Shown here piece after piece: positions 23,568 to 41,855 of a stretch of DNA of 54,889 nt. The translations under genes and the position numbers were made by a program. A model generated the notes under the pieces. It did no database searches. It saw only the letters and a program-made list of their open reading frames with translations, and was not told the DNA's origin. Origin of the DNA: Nanobdellati archaeon (GTDB lineage Archaea; Nanobdellota; Nanobdellia; UBA10117); assembly GCA_018304345.1 (NCBI GenBank), contig JAGVWI010000003.1, forward strand, positions 1 to 54,889, in the 5' to 3' direction. Within the stretch, counting starts at the first letter, position 1; the number at the start of each line of letters is the position of its first letter.

Positions 23568-23739
23568 TTACCCACCGTATAATCTAATCAATCCCAACCA
23601 CTTATTTTCTCCTAATTCTAGATTAACCCCCGCTCTTTCACAAGGAACTTCACTCGTAGTTGAATGGTTTTCTATAAAGTTATGCTGAATAACTAAGGCA
23701 TTTATCAATATGGGTTCTGGTGGCGCCTCCAATAATGAT
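23568..23739 (-). pseudogene. Relic of a DDE transposase C-terminus
   Basis: The minus strand is open before a stop at 23568-23570. The translated end contains LVIQHNFIENHST and then LELGENKWLGLIRL. This parallels the C-terminus of the intact transposase at 39367-40272, which has YYNFIRAHQ and LKLGVNKWLDLIKL at the same spacing. Upstream the match fades and no start or DDE residues remain, so it is a decayed fragment. It lies between the nucleotidyltransferase and aIF5A genes. Confidence 0.75.
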
Positions 23740-23871
23740 AGAATAATTAGGGTGGAAAGAAGGGCAAGAAATGAAAGCTGAAATTAAAGATAATAAATTG
23801 ATTGTTGAGAAAGATTAATTTTTTTTTACGTGAAATAACTCCATTTAACTTTACAGCTTGGCTGAGCAAAG
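23740..23871. other. Gene-poor stretch upstream of aIF5A
   Basis: No gene is supported here. A 15-codon open frame (23771-23818, MKAEIKDNKLIVEKD) looks like the beginning of a lost gene. The left part may still be decayed transposon sequence. Confidence 0.4.
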
Positions 23872-35827: not shown

Positions 35828-37480
35828 TTAATCCCAAGTTAGCATACTGTGTAATTTCTTATACAAATAAATTAACATATATGCATCTTTCTTTGACTTT
35901 TCTTTTGCTAACTTTCTTAATCTTTGCGTATTCCATTCAGTCTGTTGTTCCGCGTTCCAGTTGCTTAATGAATTTACAACATTTGAAATCTTTTGCACTT
36001 GTTCTTTTATATTGCTGAAGTGTTTTTTAGTAATATTAATTGTATCATCTATCTGTCTTCCTAAATGTTTTCTTGATTTTGTTTCTTTCTTTTCTCCTTT
36101 ATCTTCATCTCCTAAAAATCTCTTAATGTCGTCTTCTAAAGCATCTAATGTATCTTTTGTTACTTCATCTACTAAAGATATAACTTCATTTTGTCTTGCT
36201 ATTTCTAAATTATCTAAATCTTTTTGCTGCATCTCATAGCCAACTATTTTTACGTCAACATTTCCAAGATGTCCGCGATATCCTTCCTGTGTTTGTCCGC
36301 CCGGTAAAACTCTATAAACAAATTTTACTTCAAGAACGGAATAAACATCATTGTCTTTCTCCTCTTCTTTTTCTTCGTCTTTAACCTTCTTTAATTTTGT
36401 ATATTTCTCAACTTTTATTACATCAGAACTTCCGGGTTTTTGAGCAATCTTGACTTTCTTTTTTGCAAAGAGATCTAAAAAAGTTAGCATAGTGTTAAAC
36501 GTTGTTGGTAATTCTCCCATATCTTCAGCTGCTAATTCGGCCGGCAAAAGTTTTTGTGTTGCAATCATATATGGGCGAGCCCACTTAGTATAAAGCTTAA
36601 GTGAATTAACTTGCGCTTTCAAATAAGTGCGTTCTATTTTGTATCTTTTGTCTAATTCTTTTTCGCTTAATTCGCGCCATTTCAGGTATTCTTTTACTCT
36701 GCCTTGTAGAATTCTCTTAATCATATCGGGAACGTCAAGTTCCTTCTGTATTTTGTTAAGTACATCTTTTTCAACTTTGTCTGCTTCTCCAACAGGCATG
36801 TGAATTGAAAAAAATGCATCTCTTAGCATTACATAATTCAAATTTTGTACTAATGAGTTAATTGAACCTGGTCCTTTTTTAGAATCAACTTCAGTCAACC
36901 AAATTGTTTTTAGTGCATAATCTGCGCCGTTTGAAACAGCTTCTTCATCAGAGTGCAATTTTTTATATTCATCTAATCGCAGTTCAAATTCCTTTAAATC
37001 ATAAATCAAATTAAGAATACTTTTGACAACCATATTTATGGTGCCCATCAATTCGCTGGCTCTTTTTTCCAGCTCAGTTCTCCTTCTACCTAGTTCTCCA
37101 TAAAATGCTGATGCTTCAGCGGCTGCAAACTCATCTCTTGTTTTCGCAACTAAATCATACTTAAGACCGAAAGTCGGACCTTTCAGAGCATCGTATATCC
37201 AATAGTAAACTGGTTCTAGAGAACTCTGGAAAGTTTCATATCCTAAAGTATATTCGGCAGTTTGATCGCCTTTAATAATATTTGGATTATTGTGTAATTT
37301 CTTTTTTACATTAGTTTCAAAGTCCTTTAATTTGTCTTGGTCTACTTCTTTATCATTTTTTAATTCTTTTATTTTATCTAATAAATCGTTTAAGTAATCG
37401 CGCTTTTCTGTTAGATTCCTTTTATCCGGTCCGATAGATTCAAGTTTTTTATCTACATCTTCTATCTGTAAAGTGACCAT
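35828..37480 (-). CDS. Large coiled-coil protein, 550 residues, unknown function
   Basis: Long helical segments with charged heptads dominate: DVDKKLESIGPDKRNLTEKRDYLNDLLDKIKEL at the N-terminus and ISLVDEVTKDTLDALEDDIKRFLGDE near the C-terminus. A lysine/glutamate-rich linker (EEKEEEKDND) interrupts a central beta-containing region. No signal peptide or membrane segment is seen. It is the first gene of the cluster and the ATG at 37480 follows TATTAAAAG by about 25 bases. The mobile element inserted just upstream, and its inverted repeat begins only about 14 bases beyond that box. Confidence 0.68.
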   Translation of the reverse strand: MVTLQIEDVDKKLESIGPDKRNLTEKRDYLNDLLDKIKELKNDKEVDQDKLKDFETNVKKKLHNNPNIIKGDQTAEYTLGYETFQSSLEPVYYWIYDALKGPTFGLKYDLVAKTRDEFAAAEASAFYGELGRRRTELEKRASELMGTINMVVKSILNLIYDLKEFELRLDEYKKLHSDEEAVSNGADYALKTIWLTEVDSKKGPGSINSLVQNLNYVMLRDAFFSIHMPVGEADKVEKDVLNKIQKELDVPDMIKRILQGRVKEYLKWRELSEKELDKRYKIERTYLKAQVNSLKLYTKWARPYMIATQKLLPAELAAEDMGELPTTFNTMLTFLDLFAKKKVKIAQKPGSSDVIKVEKYTKLKKVKDEEKEEEKDNDVYSVLEVKFVYRVLPGGQTQEGYRGHLGNVDVKIVGYEMQQKDLDNLEIARQNEVISLVDEVTKDTLDALEDDIKRFLGDEDKGEKKETKSRKHLGRQIDDTINITKKHFSNIKEQVQKISNVVNSLSNWNAEQQTEWNTQRLRKLAKEKSKKDAYMLIYLYKKLHSMLTWD

Positions 37481-37514: not shown

Positions 37515-37523
37515 CCCAAAGAC
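37515..37523. repeat. Left target-site duplication
   Basis: CCCAAAGAC here is identical to the 9 bases at 41281-41289 and touches the outer edge of the left inverted repeat, the pattern expected of a target duplication made on insertion. Confidence 0.85.
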
Positions 37524-37547
37524 TGTATTGCTAACTCTGCGGGACTT
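37524..37547 (+). repeat. Left terminal inverted repeat of the R-M transposon
   Basis: 24 bp beginning TGTATTG and ending CGGGACTT; it pairs with 41257-41280 except at positions 8, 12 and 16. The restriction gene starts 39 bases inside it. Confidence 0.88.
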
Positions 37548-37585
37548 TTAGGAAGTCTTAAAAATATCTTTGTCGTTTAGATTTT

Positions 37586-38113
37586 ATGAGAATTGGGAAA
37601 CAAGATATTTTAATCAAGGGAAAGAAGATAGAGGCAGAAATTACTATAAAAGAGAAAGGCGATAGAGAGCTTCTGAAAAGACTTTATTCTGACTGGAATA
37701 AATTAAATAAGGAGCTTAAAGCAATTTCAACGAGAGGAATAAACTTGCCTGAAACAATAAGCGAGAATGCTTTTGCTTTGTTCTTTCCTGACTGCATGCG
37801 TGTTGTCGGCTTGAAAGGAATGAAATGCTCCTTTGACTGCATAAACATTAAGACTGGCTCAAGAATACAGATTAAGGCAACAAGCATAACTTCCGACTTA
37901 ACCACATTCGGACCTCGTTCAGAATGGGACGAGCTGTTCTTTTTGGATTTCTCGGCTTCAGACGGGAGCTTCAAAGCCTACAAGATAGAGCCTGACTGGA
38001 TTTACAAGCATATGGTTAATAAGAAACAGCAAGGCAGAAGACAAAGATTTTCCATAATTGACAACATAATCAAGCCAAAAGGGCTCAAACCTGTAAAAAT
38101 TTGTAAGTTGTAG
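37586..38113 (+). CDS. Bsp6I-family type II restriction endonuclease
   Basis: The 175-residue protein matches the Bsp6I family: INLPETISENAFALFF, DCINIKTGSRIQIKATSI, TTFGPRSEWDELFFLDFS and RRQRFSIIDNIIKPKG. The catalytic site is probably Asp84 with Gln95-x-Lys97, a PD-(D/E)XK variant. Known relatives cut GCNGC, but the specificity here is not shown. Codon choice differs from neighbours (more GAC, TTC, AAG and CTG), which points to recent transfer. A TTAAAAATAT box precedes the ATG by about 25 bases. The matching methyltransferase is at 40276. Confidence 0.85.
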   Translation: MRIGKQDILIKGKKIEAEITIKEKGDRELLKRLYSDWNKLNKELKAISTRGINLPETISENAFALFFPDCMRVVGLKGMKCSFDCINIKTGSRIQIKATSITSDLTTFGPRSEWDELFFLDFSASDGSFKAYKIEPDWIYKHMVNKKQQGRRQRFSIIDNIIKPKGLKPVKICKL

Positions 38114-38165
38114 TCTACTTCTTTAAAAACGAAGCATTTATAAATAAATGAATTAAATACTATAT

Positions 38166-38246
38166 ATGCTAAAATGTATGAAGTACTGGCTGTTGGGGTT
38201 TTATTTAAAGAATAGCAAAAATATACTCCTTTTGTCAGCTAATTAA
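38166..38246 (+). CDS. Possible 26-residue small protein
   Basis: ATG at 38166 begins 26 codons (MLKCMKYWLLGFYLKNSKN...) before TAA at 38246. A TTTATAAA box at 38137-38144 is centred about 25 bases upstream, the exact spacing of real leaderless genes here. The product is hydrophobic and could be a membrane microprotein or a spurious frame on a regulatory transcript. It lies between the restriction gene and the DUF5343-like gene. Confidence 0.3.
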   Translation: MLKCMKYWLLGFYLKNSKNILLLSAN

Positions 38247-38296
38247 ATATATTAATTAAGCACATTAAAGCTTAAAAAGGCATTTTGGCTATTGAA

Positions 38297-39046
38297 ATGA
38301 TGAAAATACAAGAAGATAAAAAATTAAGAATACCCTATGCAAGCCCAGGAGCAGCAAGGCAAGTAATTGATTTATTTAGAAGAATGACCCCCAAAAAGAT
38401 AACAACTAAGTTTATAGCAGACAATAAAATTGCAACTTTATCAAATGCTTTCACACTAATTGATATGCTACTATGGTTTGGAATAATTGACCGAGATGGA
38501 AATGTAAATAATAATGTGGCTCAAAAATTAAAGCTTGTTGGAAAAGATAAGGAAGATTTTATGAAAGAGATTATTAAAAAATCTTATGCTGAATTATTTA
38601 ATGCTATGGACTTAAAACAAGTAAGCCGAAATGATATTCAAAATTTTATAGTAAGCCATTATGGTTTCGGTCAAGCTCAAGCAAAATATGCTGCCATTTT
38701 ATTCCTTAATTTTTGTCAAACTTATGGTATTGAGATGTCTGAAGAACTGAAGAAAAGGCAGTATAAATTTTCTGAAAGAAAAAAAGGAGCAAGAACAGAG
38801 AAAAAGCCAAAAACTATTGGACAAATAGATAAACAAGAAAATAATGACAATTCATATCCTGAAACAAACGAACAAATAGCAATAATAATAAAAGCTCCAG
38901 GAATTAACTTTCCATTTTATGCAAAAAATAAAGAGGAATTTGAGGATATAGTAAAAAATAAACTTCCAAAAGCAATAATAGGAGTAAGAAGCTTTTTGGA
39001 TTTATTGCCAGAAGTAAAAAAAAGGGAAGAAGAAAATGTTGAATAA
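38297..39046 (+). CDS. DUF5343-like protein
   Basis: The N-terminal YASPGAARQVIDLFRRMTPKKITTKFIADNKIATLSNAFTLIDMLLWFGIIDRDGNV resembles the winged-helix-like DUF5343 family. The middle is helical and the C-terminal part is a separate small domain (APGINFPFYAKNKEEF). Start: an in-frame TTG at 38285 is open, but TTAAAAAGG at 38272-38280 fits the ATGs at 38297 or 38300 better. As transposon cargo beside restriction and methylation genes, it may be a regulator or accessory immunity factor; this is inference. Confidence 0.6.
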   Translation: MMKIQEDKKLRIPYASPGAARQVIDLFRRMTPKKITTKFIADNKIATLSNAFTLIDMLLWFGIIDRDGNVNNNVAQKLKLVGKDKEDFMKEIIKKSYAELFNAMDLKQVSRNDIQNFIVSHYGFGQAQAKYAAILFLNFCQTYGIEMSEELKKRQYKFSERKKGARTEKKPKTIGQIDKQENNDNSYPETNEQIAIIIKAPGINFPFYAKNKEEFEDIVKNKLPKAIIGVRSFLDLLPEVKKREEENVE

Positions 39047-39257
39047 CATCACAAATCATATTACGCGACCCGATGAAAAAACGAAGGGGCGAGAAACGTC
39101 AAGCCTTAGTAGTTTGAGGGATACAATAACGAGCGATAGCAAGTGAGTGAAAAAATAGGTTTTAGCTTTCCTTGGCGGGACGGCTTAACTGAACTCGCGT
39201 AGAGCTTATTTTAAAACTATAAGACTATCTTATGTATATCTCAAGCTCTTATTACTT
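39047..39257. other. Non-coding part of the transposon, upstream of the zinc-ribbon relic
   Basis: No gene is supported. The plus strand contains GC-rich bits (GGCGGGACGG, GAACTCGCG) and some short inverted bases (AGAGCTT ... AAGCTCT). I could not identify a structured RNA or further insertion-sequence ends here. Confidence 0.4.
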
Positions 39258-39374
39258 TTAAACCTTTTTACTGCCTTTTTTGTTTTTCGGCTCTTTATCC
39301 CAACGAGAGCTTTTACATTTAGGGCATATGAGAGGCTTTTCCTTTTGAGAACGAGGTGGCCATACTATGACTAA
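39258..39374 (-). pseudogene. Truncated zinc-ribbon protein gene
   Basis: On the minus strand a frame ending at 39258 encodes WPPRSQKEKPLICPKCKSSRW and then a lysine-rich end. Small archaeal zinc-ribbon proteins have an upstream CxxCG pair and then W-PR...CPKCKS; the first pair is missing here. No ATG, GTG or TTG occurs in frame before a stop at the left edge of the transposase gene, so the gene is cut at about 39363-39374. Confidence 0.55.
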
Positions 39375-39382
39375 TCATAGTA
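39363..39382 (+). promoter_or_regulatory. Hairpin over the transposase start codon
   Basis: TACTATGA-CTAA-TCATAGTA is a perfect 8-bp inverted repeat in which the ATG at 39367 lies in the left arm. As RNA it would hide the start; as DNA it could be a binding site. Either could limit transposase expression. An internal ATG at 39391 is an alternative start outside it. Confidence 0.5.
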
Positions 39383-40272
39383 ATAAGAAGATGAAACAAG
39401 AAATAAGATGTCCTCACTGCAACGGCGAAAACATAGTTAGACGAGGGCAAAGAAAAACACAGAATAGAGGAATAATCCAAAGATACGGCTGTCAAGATTG
39501 TAATAAGCGTTTTGTAGTTGATGACGGATTTTTCAAAATGAAGAACGCACCACAGAAAGTAACCTTATGTTTGGATTTGTTTTATAGAGGTATCTCTACA
39601 AGAAAAGTGCAAGAGCATTTACAAGCTTTTTATCCACATAATAGCTCTAATGTTTCTATCTATAAATGGATTATCAAATATTCAAAAATGATTTCAGGCT
39701 TTACAGATAATCTTAAATTGAAAGTCGGAAAGGAATTACAAGTTGATGAAATGGAATATAAGACAAAAGGAAGAAAGGCTTGGTTTATAGATGCAATAGA
39801 CACCGAAACGAGATATATGGTTTCTTCTGAATTTTCAAAGTTAAGAGGCAGAAAAGAAATAAGAAAAGTGATTATAAGAGCAAAGCAGAACACAGAAAAT
39901 CAAATTAAGATATGCACCACAGACGGCTATACTGCATATGAAAATATTGTTAAAAAGATTTTTGGATATTCTCTTAAAACACATACTTGGAATGTTACAC
40001 ATAACAAAGTAACCCAGCTAAAAGGCGAGGGATTTAATCATAAGGTTGAAAGAATGCATAGCAACATAAGAGCACGAACAAAAACTTTCAGAAGCTTTCA
40101 CGGCTCGGTTAAATCTGCAAATGCAGTTATGAAAGGGCTTTCAATTTATTATAATTTCATAAGAGCTCATCAGGCTATAAATTGCTGTCCTTATGAGCTT
40201 GCCGTCCCTGAATTGAAGCTTGGTGTGAATAAATGGCTTGATTTAATTAAACTTTCAAAGCAAAATAATTAA
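39367..40272 (+). CDS. DDE transposase, IS6/IS240-like, with N-terminal zinc ribbon
   Basis: The 301-residue protein starts with a CxxC...CxxC zinc ribbon (CPHCNGENIVRRGQ...YGCQDCNKRF) and an HTH-like region (LDLFYRGISTRKVQEHL). Then come the DDE residues: VDEMEYK, CTTDGYTAY, and KVERMHSNIR. The C-terminus has YYNFIRAHQ and LKLGVNKWLDLIKL, as in IS240-like enzymes. A decayed fragment at 23568-23739 belongs to the same family. It lies three bases before the methyltransferase and would mobilise the surrounding element through its terminal repeats. Confidence 0.92.
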   Translation: MTNHSNKKMKQEIRCPHCNGENIVRRGQRKTQNRGIIQRYGCQDCNKRFVVDDGFFKMKNAPQKVTLCLDLFYRGISTRKVQEHLQAFYPHNSSNVSIYKWIIKYSKMISGFTDNLKLKVGKELQVDEMEYKTKGRKAWFIDAIDTETRYMVSSEFSKLRGRKEIRKVIIRAKQNTENQIKICTTDGYTAYENIVKKIFGYSLKTHTWNVTHNKVTQLKGEGFNHKVERMHSNIRARTKTFRSFHGSVKSANAVMKGLSIYYNFIRAHQAINCCPYELAVPELKLGVNKWLDLIKLSKQNN

Positions 40273-40275
40273 AAG

Positions 40276-41241
40276 ATGATAAGAACTAAAACTAATATGG
40301 AAAGAGGCTTCAGAACATTAGATTTATTTGCTGGTGTTGGGGGCATAAGGTTAGGTTTTGAAAATGCTGGATTTAAAACAATATTTGCGAATGATTTTGA
40401 TAAAACCTGCAAAGATACTTATGATTTGAATTTCGGTGAGCCAAAACTTAACACGGAAGATATATGGAAATTAAATATAAAAGAAATTCCTGAATTTGAT
40501 ATATTACTTGGTGGTTTTCCTTGTCAGGCTTTTTCTATTGCTGGATATAGAAAAGGATTTAATGAAGCAAGAGGAAATTTATTTTTTAGAATAGCAGAAA
40601 TCTTAGAAGAAAGAAAACCCGAAGCTTTCTTATTAGAGAATGTTAAAAATCTTAAAGGACACGATAAAGGTAAAACTTTCAAAGTAATAATAGAAACTTT
40701 GGAAAAGCTCGGCTATCACATTAAAACAAAAGTGCTTAATAGTATGGAATATGGAAATATTCCACAGAATAGAGAAAGGATTTTTATTGTCGGCTTCTTG
40801 GATAAAAACAAAGCAGAAGCCTTTGAATTTCCGCAGTCGATTAAATTAACAAAGTCTTTTAGAGAATTTACAGCAAACGAAGCAGATGATAAGTATTATT
40901 ACAACGATAAACCTCTTTATGAGAGAATAAAAAACGACATCAATTCAGAGGATATGGTTTATCAGTGGCGTAGAAAATATGTCAGGACAAATAAAAAGGG
41001 GGTTGTGCCTACCTTAACCGCAAATATGGGACTGGGCGGTCATAATGTTCCTATAATCAAAAATCATAAAGGAATAAGGAAACTAACACCAAAAGAAACC
41101 TTTATGCTTCAGGGTTTTCCAAAGGGATTTAAACTTCCTGAAAACCTCGCAGATAACAAATTATATCATCAGGCTGGGAATAGTGTAGTCGTTCCAGTCG
41201 TTCAAAGAATAGCTGAAAATATGATAAAAGTTTTAGCTTAA
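40276..41241 (+). CDS. Cytosine-C5 DNA methyltransferase
   Basis: The m5C motifs occur in order: LDLFAGVGGIRLGFENAGF (I), GGFPCQAFSIAGYRKGF (IV, catalytic Cys), LLENVKNL (VI), QNRERIFIVGF (VIII), PTLTANMGLGGHNVP (IX) and HQAGNSVVVPVV (X). The 321-residue length is usual. It should protect the host from the Bsp6I-type endonuclease at 37586, giving a complete type II system. The gene starts three bases after the transposase stop; a second ATG at 40297 is possible. Confidence 0.94.
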   Translation: MIRTKTNMERGFRTLDLFAGVGGIRLGFENAGFKTIFANDFDKTCKDTYDLNFGEPKLNTEDIWKLNIKEIPEFDILLGGFPCQAFSIAGYRKGFNEARGNLFFRIAEILEERKPEAFLLENVKNLKGHDKGKTFKVIIETLEKLGYHIKTKVLNSMEYGNIPQNRERIFIVGFLDKNKAEAFEFPQSIKLTKSFREFTANEADDKYYYNDKPLYERIKNDINSEDMVYQWRRKYVRTNKKGVVPTLTANMGLGGHNVPIIKNHKGIRKLTPKETFMLQGFPKGFKLPENLADNKLYHQAGNSVVVPVVQRIAENMIKVLA

Positions 41242-41256
41242 TTTTTTTGGGAAAAT

Positions 41257-41280
41257 AAGTCCCGAAGAATTAACAATACA
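41257..41280 (-). repeat. Right terminal inverted repeat of the R-M transposon
   Basis: Reverse complement begins TGTATTG and ends CGGGACTT, 21 of 24 identical to 37524-37547. It ends 15 bases after the methyltransferase stop. Confidence 0.88.
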
Positions 41281-41289
41281 CCCAAAGAC
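41281..41289. repeat. Right target-site duplication
   Basis: CCCAAAGAC, identical to 37515-37523 and directly adjacent to the right inverted repeat. Joining the two copies would recreate an uninterrupted intergenic region. Confidence 0.85.
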
Positions 41290-41342: not shown

Positions 41343-41855
41343 ATGGCAAAAGCTCTTTTTGTAATAGCACCTGAAAATTTCAGAGACGAAGAGTATTTCA
41401 AACCAAAAGAAATTCTCGAAAAAGCAGGACATATCGTTATAACTGCTAGTACTAAACGTGGTATTTGCAAAGGTATGCTGGGCGGCAAAGCTAAAACTGA
41501 TATCCTTATAGGCGATGCAATTGAAGATAATTTTGATAGTTTAGTTGTTATTGGTGGAAGCGGAAGCACAAAATTATGGGATCTTTCTGAACTGCAACAA
41601 TTATTTCACGCTTTTTATGATGCAAACAAACCAATCGCAGCTATATGTTTAGCAACCGTTGCATTGATGAGAAGCGGATTAACGCAAGGCAAAAGAGTTA
41701 CTGGCTGGAGTCCAGAAGCTAATATTGAAGCTGCTAAACAAGGAGCACAATATACAAATGCTGGTGTTGAAGAAGATGATTTATTTATTACCGGCAAAGG
41801 TCCAGAATTTGCTGAGCAATTTGGACGCAAGATATTAAAACGCCTGCAGAAATAA
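41343..41855 (+). CDS. DJ-1/PfpI-family protein
   Basis: The 170-residue protein has the flavodoxin-like PfpI fold: KALFVIAPENFRDEEYF with the conserved Glu, LVVIGGSGSTKLWD, and AAICLATVALMRSG with the nucleophile Cys102. The gene following is eight bases downstream, so the two are probably co-transcribed. Family members act as glyoxalases, proteases or chaperone-like proteins; the activity here is open. CTATAAAAG near 41311-41319 is its probable TATA box. Confidence 0.9.
   Translation: MAKALFVIAPENFRDEEYFKPKEILEKAGHIVITASTKRGICKGMLGGKAKTDILIGDAIEDNFDSLVVIGGSGSTKLWDLSELQQLFHAFYDANKPIAAICLATVALMRSGLTQGKRVTGWSPEANIEAAKQGAQYTNAGVEEDDLFITGKGPEFAEQFGRKILKRLQK

Follow-up and report, generated by a model that had tools for sequence, protein, structure and literature searches.

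Restriction-modification (R-M) systems spread horizontally and have been called selfish, and their movement has mostly been inferred from plasmids, phages and flanking insertion sequence (IS) copies. R-M genes flanked by IS copies have been described as composite transposons, together with other IS-linked R-M movement (PMC3031569), and Tn1999.7 has acquired an R-M system (PMC9664867). In the account given in PMC3031569, the putative PluTI mobile element, cited there, has an R-M system as its inserted unit, and further R-M insertions are accompanied by long, variable duplications. Members of the IS6 family are ~0.8 kb long, generate 8-bp target duplications, and include a single passenger-carrying member, ISDsp3 (PMC7986276); the archaeal IS6-like elements have been argued to form a separate family (PMC6807381).

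Here, a 54,889-nucleotide stretch of DNA from a Nanobdellati archaeon (hereafter, the window) was analysed. It contains a unit that is very probably a mobile, cargo-carrying, IS-like transposon enclosing a complete type II R-M system, and we read this unit as belonging to a transposon lineage with a recurrent role in the mobilisation of R-M systems. A literature search of incomplete coverage returned no description of a transposon lineage recurrently carrying R-M systems; what is apparently new is a lineage in which about a third of the elements carry R-M systems, which belong to numerous unrelated types and follow a regular layout. A defined transposon family that repeatedly carries R-M systems, swaps them between transposases and keeps a fixed layout makes two questions directly testable, namely by what means archaeal type II R-M systems are moved, and how a new R-M system spares an unmethylated host.

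The element resembles IS-flanked R-M systems and Tn1999.7 in its transposase-type R-M mobility and in that the R-M system is thought to stabilise its carrier. Those systems use whole IS copies or larger transposons, whereas in the window a single transposase with a single pair of ends encloses the R-M system, an arrangement that recurs across a lineage; a composite R-M transposon was rejected on the single transposase gene, the genome holding elsewhere only a distant 42-aa fragment. Compared with PluTI and the long-duplication insertions as described in PMC3031569, the duplications here are 8–9 bp.

Structure and gene content of the element

The element spans 37524–41280, which by direct reading of the sequence gives 3,757 bp between its duplications. 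The left target-site duplication (9 bp, CCCAAAGAC, 37515–37523) is followed by the left terminal inverted repeat (24 bp, TGTATTGCTAACTCTGCGGGACTT, 37524–37547, + strand); the right terminal inverted repeat (24 bp, 41257–41280, − strand, reverse complement TGTATTGTTAATTCTTCGGGACTT) agrees with the left end at 21 of 24 positions and is followed by the second duplication copy (9 bp, CCCAAAGAC, 41281–41289). Both duplication copies were assigned from the sequence and a family-wide end/duplication search, and the left end from the sequence, a genome end search and a weight matrix for which it was the top match in the window. With one transposase, its own inverted repeats, a target duplication and passenger genes, the element is tIS-like, that is, a cargo-carrying IS-like unit transposon. 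The initial annotation had proposed a single-transposase element of this length that holds all of a type II R-M system between 24-bp ends and is flanked by a 9-bp direct repeat; direct reading confirmed the dimensions and the remainder is supported, as are the four gene identities that it gave, which were confirmed by Pfam.

Four open reading frames, all on the + strand, encode proteins of 175, 253, 301 and 321 aa. The first (37586–38113) encodes a Bsp6I-family restriction endonuclease (R; 175 aa; RE_Bsp6I PF09504, 7e-15; PADLOC REase_II, 1.3e-23), in which the D..QxK nuclease motif is conserved on alignment. Inside the left end, ~20 nt before the R start codon, lies a TATA-like box (TTAAAAATA, 37558–37566, +) that is probably the R promoter, and a comparable A/T-rich box occurs in the R-proximal ends of relatives. 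The second gene (38285–39046, +) encodes a DUF5343 protein (253 aa; Pfam PF17278, 6e-9; PADLOC candidate family PDC-M34A, 5e-8). It is followed on the opposite strand by the shortened remnant of a small zinc-ribbon gene (39294–39362, −), detected by tblastn over residues 20–41 only at 65% identity; an intact zinc-ribbon gene adjoins the transposase in other family members. The DDE transposase (301 aa, 39367–40272, +; DDE_Tnp_IS240, 1e-11) has a zinc ribbon (C15, C18, C42, C45) and catalytic residues D127, D186 and E228, and directly behind it lies the gene for a C5-cytosine DNA methyltransferase (M; 321 aa, 40276–41241, +; DNA_methylase PF00145, 5e-93), with the motifs of a cognate m5C methyltransferase intact and M.HhaI as its closest solved relative (3e-60).

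Homologous R and M genes lie side by side at six other loci, and the activity and specificity of the pair in the window are predicted from the two protein families. Bsp6I recognises GCNGC, and this motif occurs at 98 sites in the window against 134 expected; this uncontrolled count was set aside, the specificity being a predicted one.

A family of related transposons

Transposase homologues were found in 46 of 188 relatives (E ≤ 1e-8) and in 78 of 378 genomes of the same archaeal class (E ≤ 1e-40), with ~48–73% identity and a more distant group at ~30–39%. Around each homologue, about 100 loci in all, an exact 8- or 9-bp repeat enclosing 24-bp inverted ends was searched for. Ends matching at 18 or more of 24 positions with an exact duplication were found at 61 loci; a decoy that was reversed and not complemented gave 1. 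After dropping end pairs unlike those of the family (L055, L065, L145, L155 and L156, discarded by eye), and adding two clear 17/24 cases, the final set comprised 62 bounded elements (duplications of 9 bp in 36 and of 8 bp in 26), from genomes that are mostly draft and with ends and cargo assigned computationally. These elements are 1.7–6.9 kb long (median 3.5 kb), and since the transposase takes up 0.9 kb, there is cargo in nearly all of them. The 9-bp group has the end consensus TGCATTGTTACGTTAACGGGTGTT and the 8-bp group TGAGCTGTAAAGTTAACG...; in the family, 24-bp ends start with TGTATTG or TGCATTG.

The catalytic D127/D186/E228 triad is present in 58 of 58 family transposases, and the zinc-ribbon cysteines in 57 of 58. 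Structure prediction followed by a fold search gave a retroviral-integrase-like DDE core (pLDDT 88) for the transposase; a sequence search of solved structures produced no match. Searches of phage records and IMG/VR with the transposase likewise produced no match, a plasmid search gave only matches at 26–28%, and a scan of genome contigs gave one distant match in Pacearchaeota. The family is spread widely through a single class of archaea with small genomes and is apparently undescribed. About 50 of the 62 elements also have a small regulator-like gene (zinc-ribbon in 22, AbrB-like in 25, ribbon-helix-helix (RHH) in 5), nearly always of one kind per element (e.g. L049, L043, L063), which is a candidate regulator of the transposase or of the ends.

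In its DDE_Tnp_IS240 domain the family resembles the archaeal branch of IS6/IS26: the transposase in the window scored 45 bits against the IS6/IS240-type model PF13610 (cut-off 27), and the NCBIfam IS6 model was its best model and matched 36 of 36 transposases scanned. Plain IS6 membership was rejected on the NCBIfam equivalog cut-off (77 bits, cut-off 125), the duplication length (9 bp, as against 8 bp in IS6 and in the sister clades of the present family), and the size (3,757 bp, with three passengers). More generally, 9-bp duplications in the main clade, an N-terminal zinc ribbon, and lengths that include cargo set the family apart from IS6; the distant members L063, L154 and L186 share GGTTCTGT ends and 8-bp duplications with IS6, and these features may link the two. 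The target duplication of IS1 is 9 bp, and this length and the four-cysteine N-terminal zinc ribbon are the points of likeness to that family, from which the elements differ by a catalytic domain nearer to IS6 and by large passengers. The NCBIfam IS1 equivalog was the second-best model, with a score of 51 bits where the cut-off is 100, and plain IS1 membership was rejected on this score and on size; the IS1/IS1595 zinc model NF050000 scored 27.5 bits, just below its cut-off of 28.

R-M cargo across the family

The initial annotation had considered such an element rarely seen; R-M genes were found in 22 of the 62 bounded elements, including that in the window, which is therefore not an isolated rarity. 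Restriction function was assigned by family in 14 of the 22, and the other 8 have a methyltransferase and a partner gene. The former comprise 11 family-confirmed two-gene systems, with endonucleases of the Bsp6I (the window element, L138), MjaI (L037, L127, L130), BsaWI (L059), MvaI/BcnI (L060, L157) and PADLOC REase_II (L061, L144, and L168 through 85% identity to L144) families, and three fused type IIG enzymes (L054, L072, L164). In the latter (L038, L133, L044, L048, L074, L122, L123, L125), the partner of the DNA methyltransferase is probably R. The methyltransferases of L125, L127, L130, L133, L138, L157 and L168 were assigned by motif, by family search, or by blastp to Pfam-confirmed ones. 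The edge genes adjacent to the methyltransferases in L038/L133, L044, L048, L074, L122 and L123/L125 have no Pfam match or clear PADLOC match, and are candidates for new endonuclease families. The closest relative of the window's transposase (L120, 73.5% identity) is accompanied by an N6-methyltransferase gene; this element is truncated at the contig end and was left out of the count.

In the 50 element-bearing genomes, the elements hold 13 of the 73 strong PF00145/PF01555 methyltransferases and make up 0.48% of the DNA; this corresponds to an enrichment of ~37-fold, or ~35-fold without the window's own methyltransferase (12 of 72). The associated P value takes no account of kinship, related elements not being independent observations. 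Other cargo includes an ABC transporter, a radical SAM enzyme, a permease operon, Fic, PIN and membrane proteins. Outside the elements, Bsp6I/m5C pairs are likewise present, arranged in tandem or convergently and in some cases separated by a Vsr-like gene, and R-M systems of this kind therefore do not depend on the transposon vehicle. Among relatives, a Vsr-type mismatch endonuclease accompanies the Bsp6I/m5C pair of L138 (L138:4384–4737, Pfam Vsr 5e-23), and Vsr-like open reading frames were seen by eye in L182 and L183; none is present in the element in the window.

Exchange of cargo and transposase

The R and M proteins of L144 and L168 are 85% identical, and their transposases are 33% identical, with different ends and duplications of 9 and 8 bp; a sister relationship of the two transposases was rejected (p = 3e-48). 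The R and M proteins of the window element are 64% and 75% identical to those of L138, with the same order of R first and M behind the transposase, and sister transposases were again rejected (p = 0.0007). Since the same R-M systems are found in elements with differing transposases and ends, vehicle and cargo have been exchanged. Conversely, L053, L147 and L152 share a transposase end of ~1.3 kb at ~90% nucleotide identity and carry entirely different cargo (an ABC transporter in L053).

On the transposase tree, duplication length requires 3 changes, and the presence of R-M cargo requires 17, compared with 17.8 for shuffled labels. The varied cargo and the seemingly random spread of R-M systems across the tree are consistent with a real element in which the R-M genes, frequent as they are in mobile DNA, are passive passengers and their arrangement is without regulatory meaning. 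We regard this as quite possible, if somewhat short of probable; the enrichment of methyltransferases in the elements speaks against it, as does the position of the R genes.

Layout of R, M and transposase

The general rule is that R is outermost and M is on the transposase side. All 19 two-gene systems have R at the outside, eight of these R assignments resting partly on position, and R faces inward except in L059; when only the confirmed systems are considered (n = 11), R is outermost in 11 and inward-facing in 10. All 10 inward-facing confirmed R genes start 52–64 bp from the end (in L138, if an internal ATG is taken as the start) and are preceded by a TATA-like, A/T-rich box ~10 bp inside the end; in the other elements, a gene starts 40–75 bp from the end at just 7 of 53 inward-facing ends. 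The order of transposase (T), M and R among the 19 is T-M-R in 15, R-T-M in 4 and M-R-T in none, and M follows the transposase immediately, on the same strand, in 12, the two genes being divergent in the other 7. The placement of the transposase between R and M, to which the initial annotation had attributed the linkage of the two genes, thus holds for the window element and is a minority layout in the family.

In the mechanism that we propose, the transposase would bind both ends and move everything between them, whereby R and M would always travel together. M would be expressed with the transposase, whose gene lies 3 bp upstream, so that a new genome would be methylated early, and R would have a separate promoter, close to the left end within the element, at which the transposase, or the small regulator in relatives, could repress it initially. 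Once established, the R-M pair would repel foreign DNA and punish loss of the element, favouring retention of the transposon. Such coupling of M to the transposase and of R to the end is suggested by the gene order and the TATA-like box. Protection must come before the nuclease in a new host (2025 review, PMC12707154), and the layout of the element would be one way to meet this need. The fullest form of the proposal, an archaeal transposon lineage specialised in the spread of R-M systems, with a layout that times expression (M with the transposase, and R repressed at the end by the transposase or a zinc-ribbon, AbrB or RHH protein until methylation), is tentative, and we consider it rather doubtful.

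State of the element

The host genome contains one full copy of the transposase. A single copy, a shortened zinc-ribbon gene, and ends that match at 21 of 24 positions instead of being identical would be expected if the element were a fossil with a dead transposase, kept for host defence by selection on the R-M genes alone; with the transposase frame and all catalytic residues intact and the 9-bp duplication exact, this is unlikely. For a mobile element, the shortening of the zinc-ribbon gene may affect transposition activity.

Boundaries and insertion site

Inverted repeats spread through the genome in cargo-free form would, according to the initial annotation, have refuted its reading, and this is not the case: with up to 3 mismatches allowed, the end sequence had no match beyond these two positions in the 438-kb, 83%-complete host genome. 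A weight matrix built from 9-bp-type family ends assigned its two highest ranks in the window to exactly these two ends, and gave no additional end pair flanking the transposase gene within the element; the ends were not among the longest repeat pairs listed by a general repeat search. Their uniqueness in the genome, together with the decoy-controlled family search, rules out chance.

The left (35828–37480, −) and right (41343–41855, +, DJ-1/PfpI family) neighbours of the element form a divergent pair. In the same-genus genome G001, a gap of ~57 bp that holds no insert separates the homologues of these genes (65% and 73% identical), and the pair is likewise close in G007, G009 and G012. The element was inserted into the gap between divergent genes, and the empty locus is established at the level of gene order. 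Of the empty site with a single target copy that had been anticipated earlier, the adjacency of the flanking genes was found in G001, where the intergenic DNA is too diverged for the exact single-copy target to be read. Insertion of a plain IS between the R and M genes of a resident locus, with coincidental outer repeats, would account for the position of the transposase in the window and for Bsp6I/m5C pairs elsewhere without a transposase, but it is very improbable and largely refuted by outer ends that are the sole matches in the genome and fit the family matrix, the lack of an inner end pair, ~60 sister elements bounded likewise outside their cargo, and the empty locus in G001.

Eight transposase homologues, of both duplication groups, are present in one 0.83-Mb single-contig genome (G097); several are bounded, with differing cargo, making it a good place to seek recent activity. 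The window itself also contains a decayed second element of the 8-bp type at 23580–23860, consisting of a C-terminal transposase fragment (42 aa at 45% identity), the last part of an AbrB-like gene and, at 23860 (−), an end of the 8-bp type.
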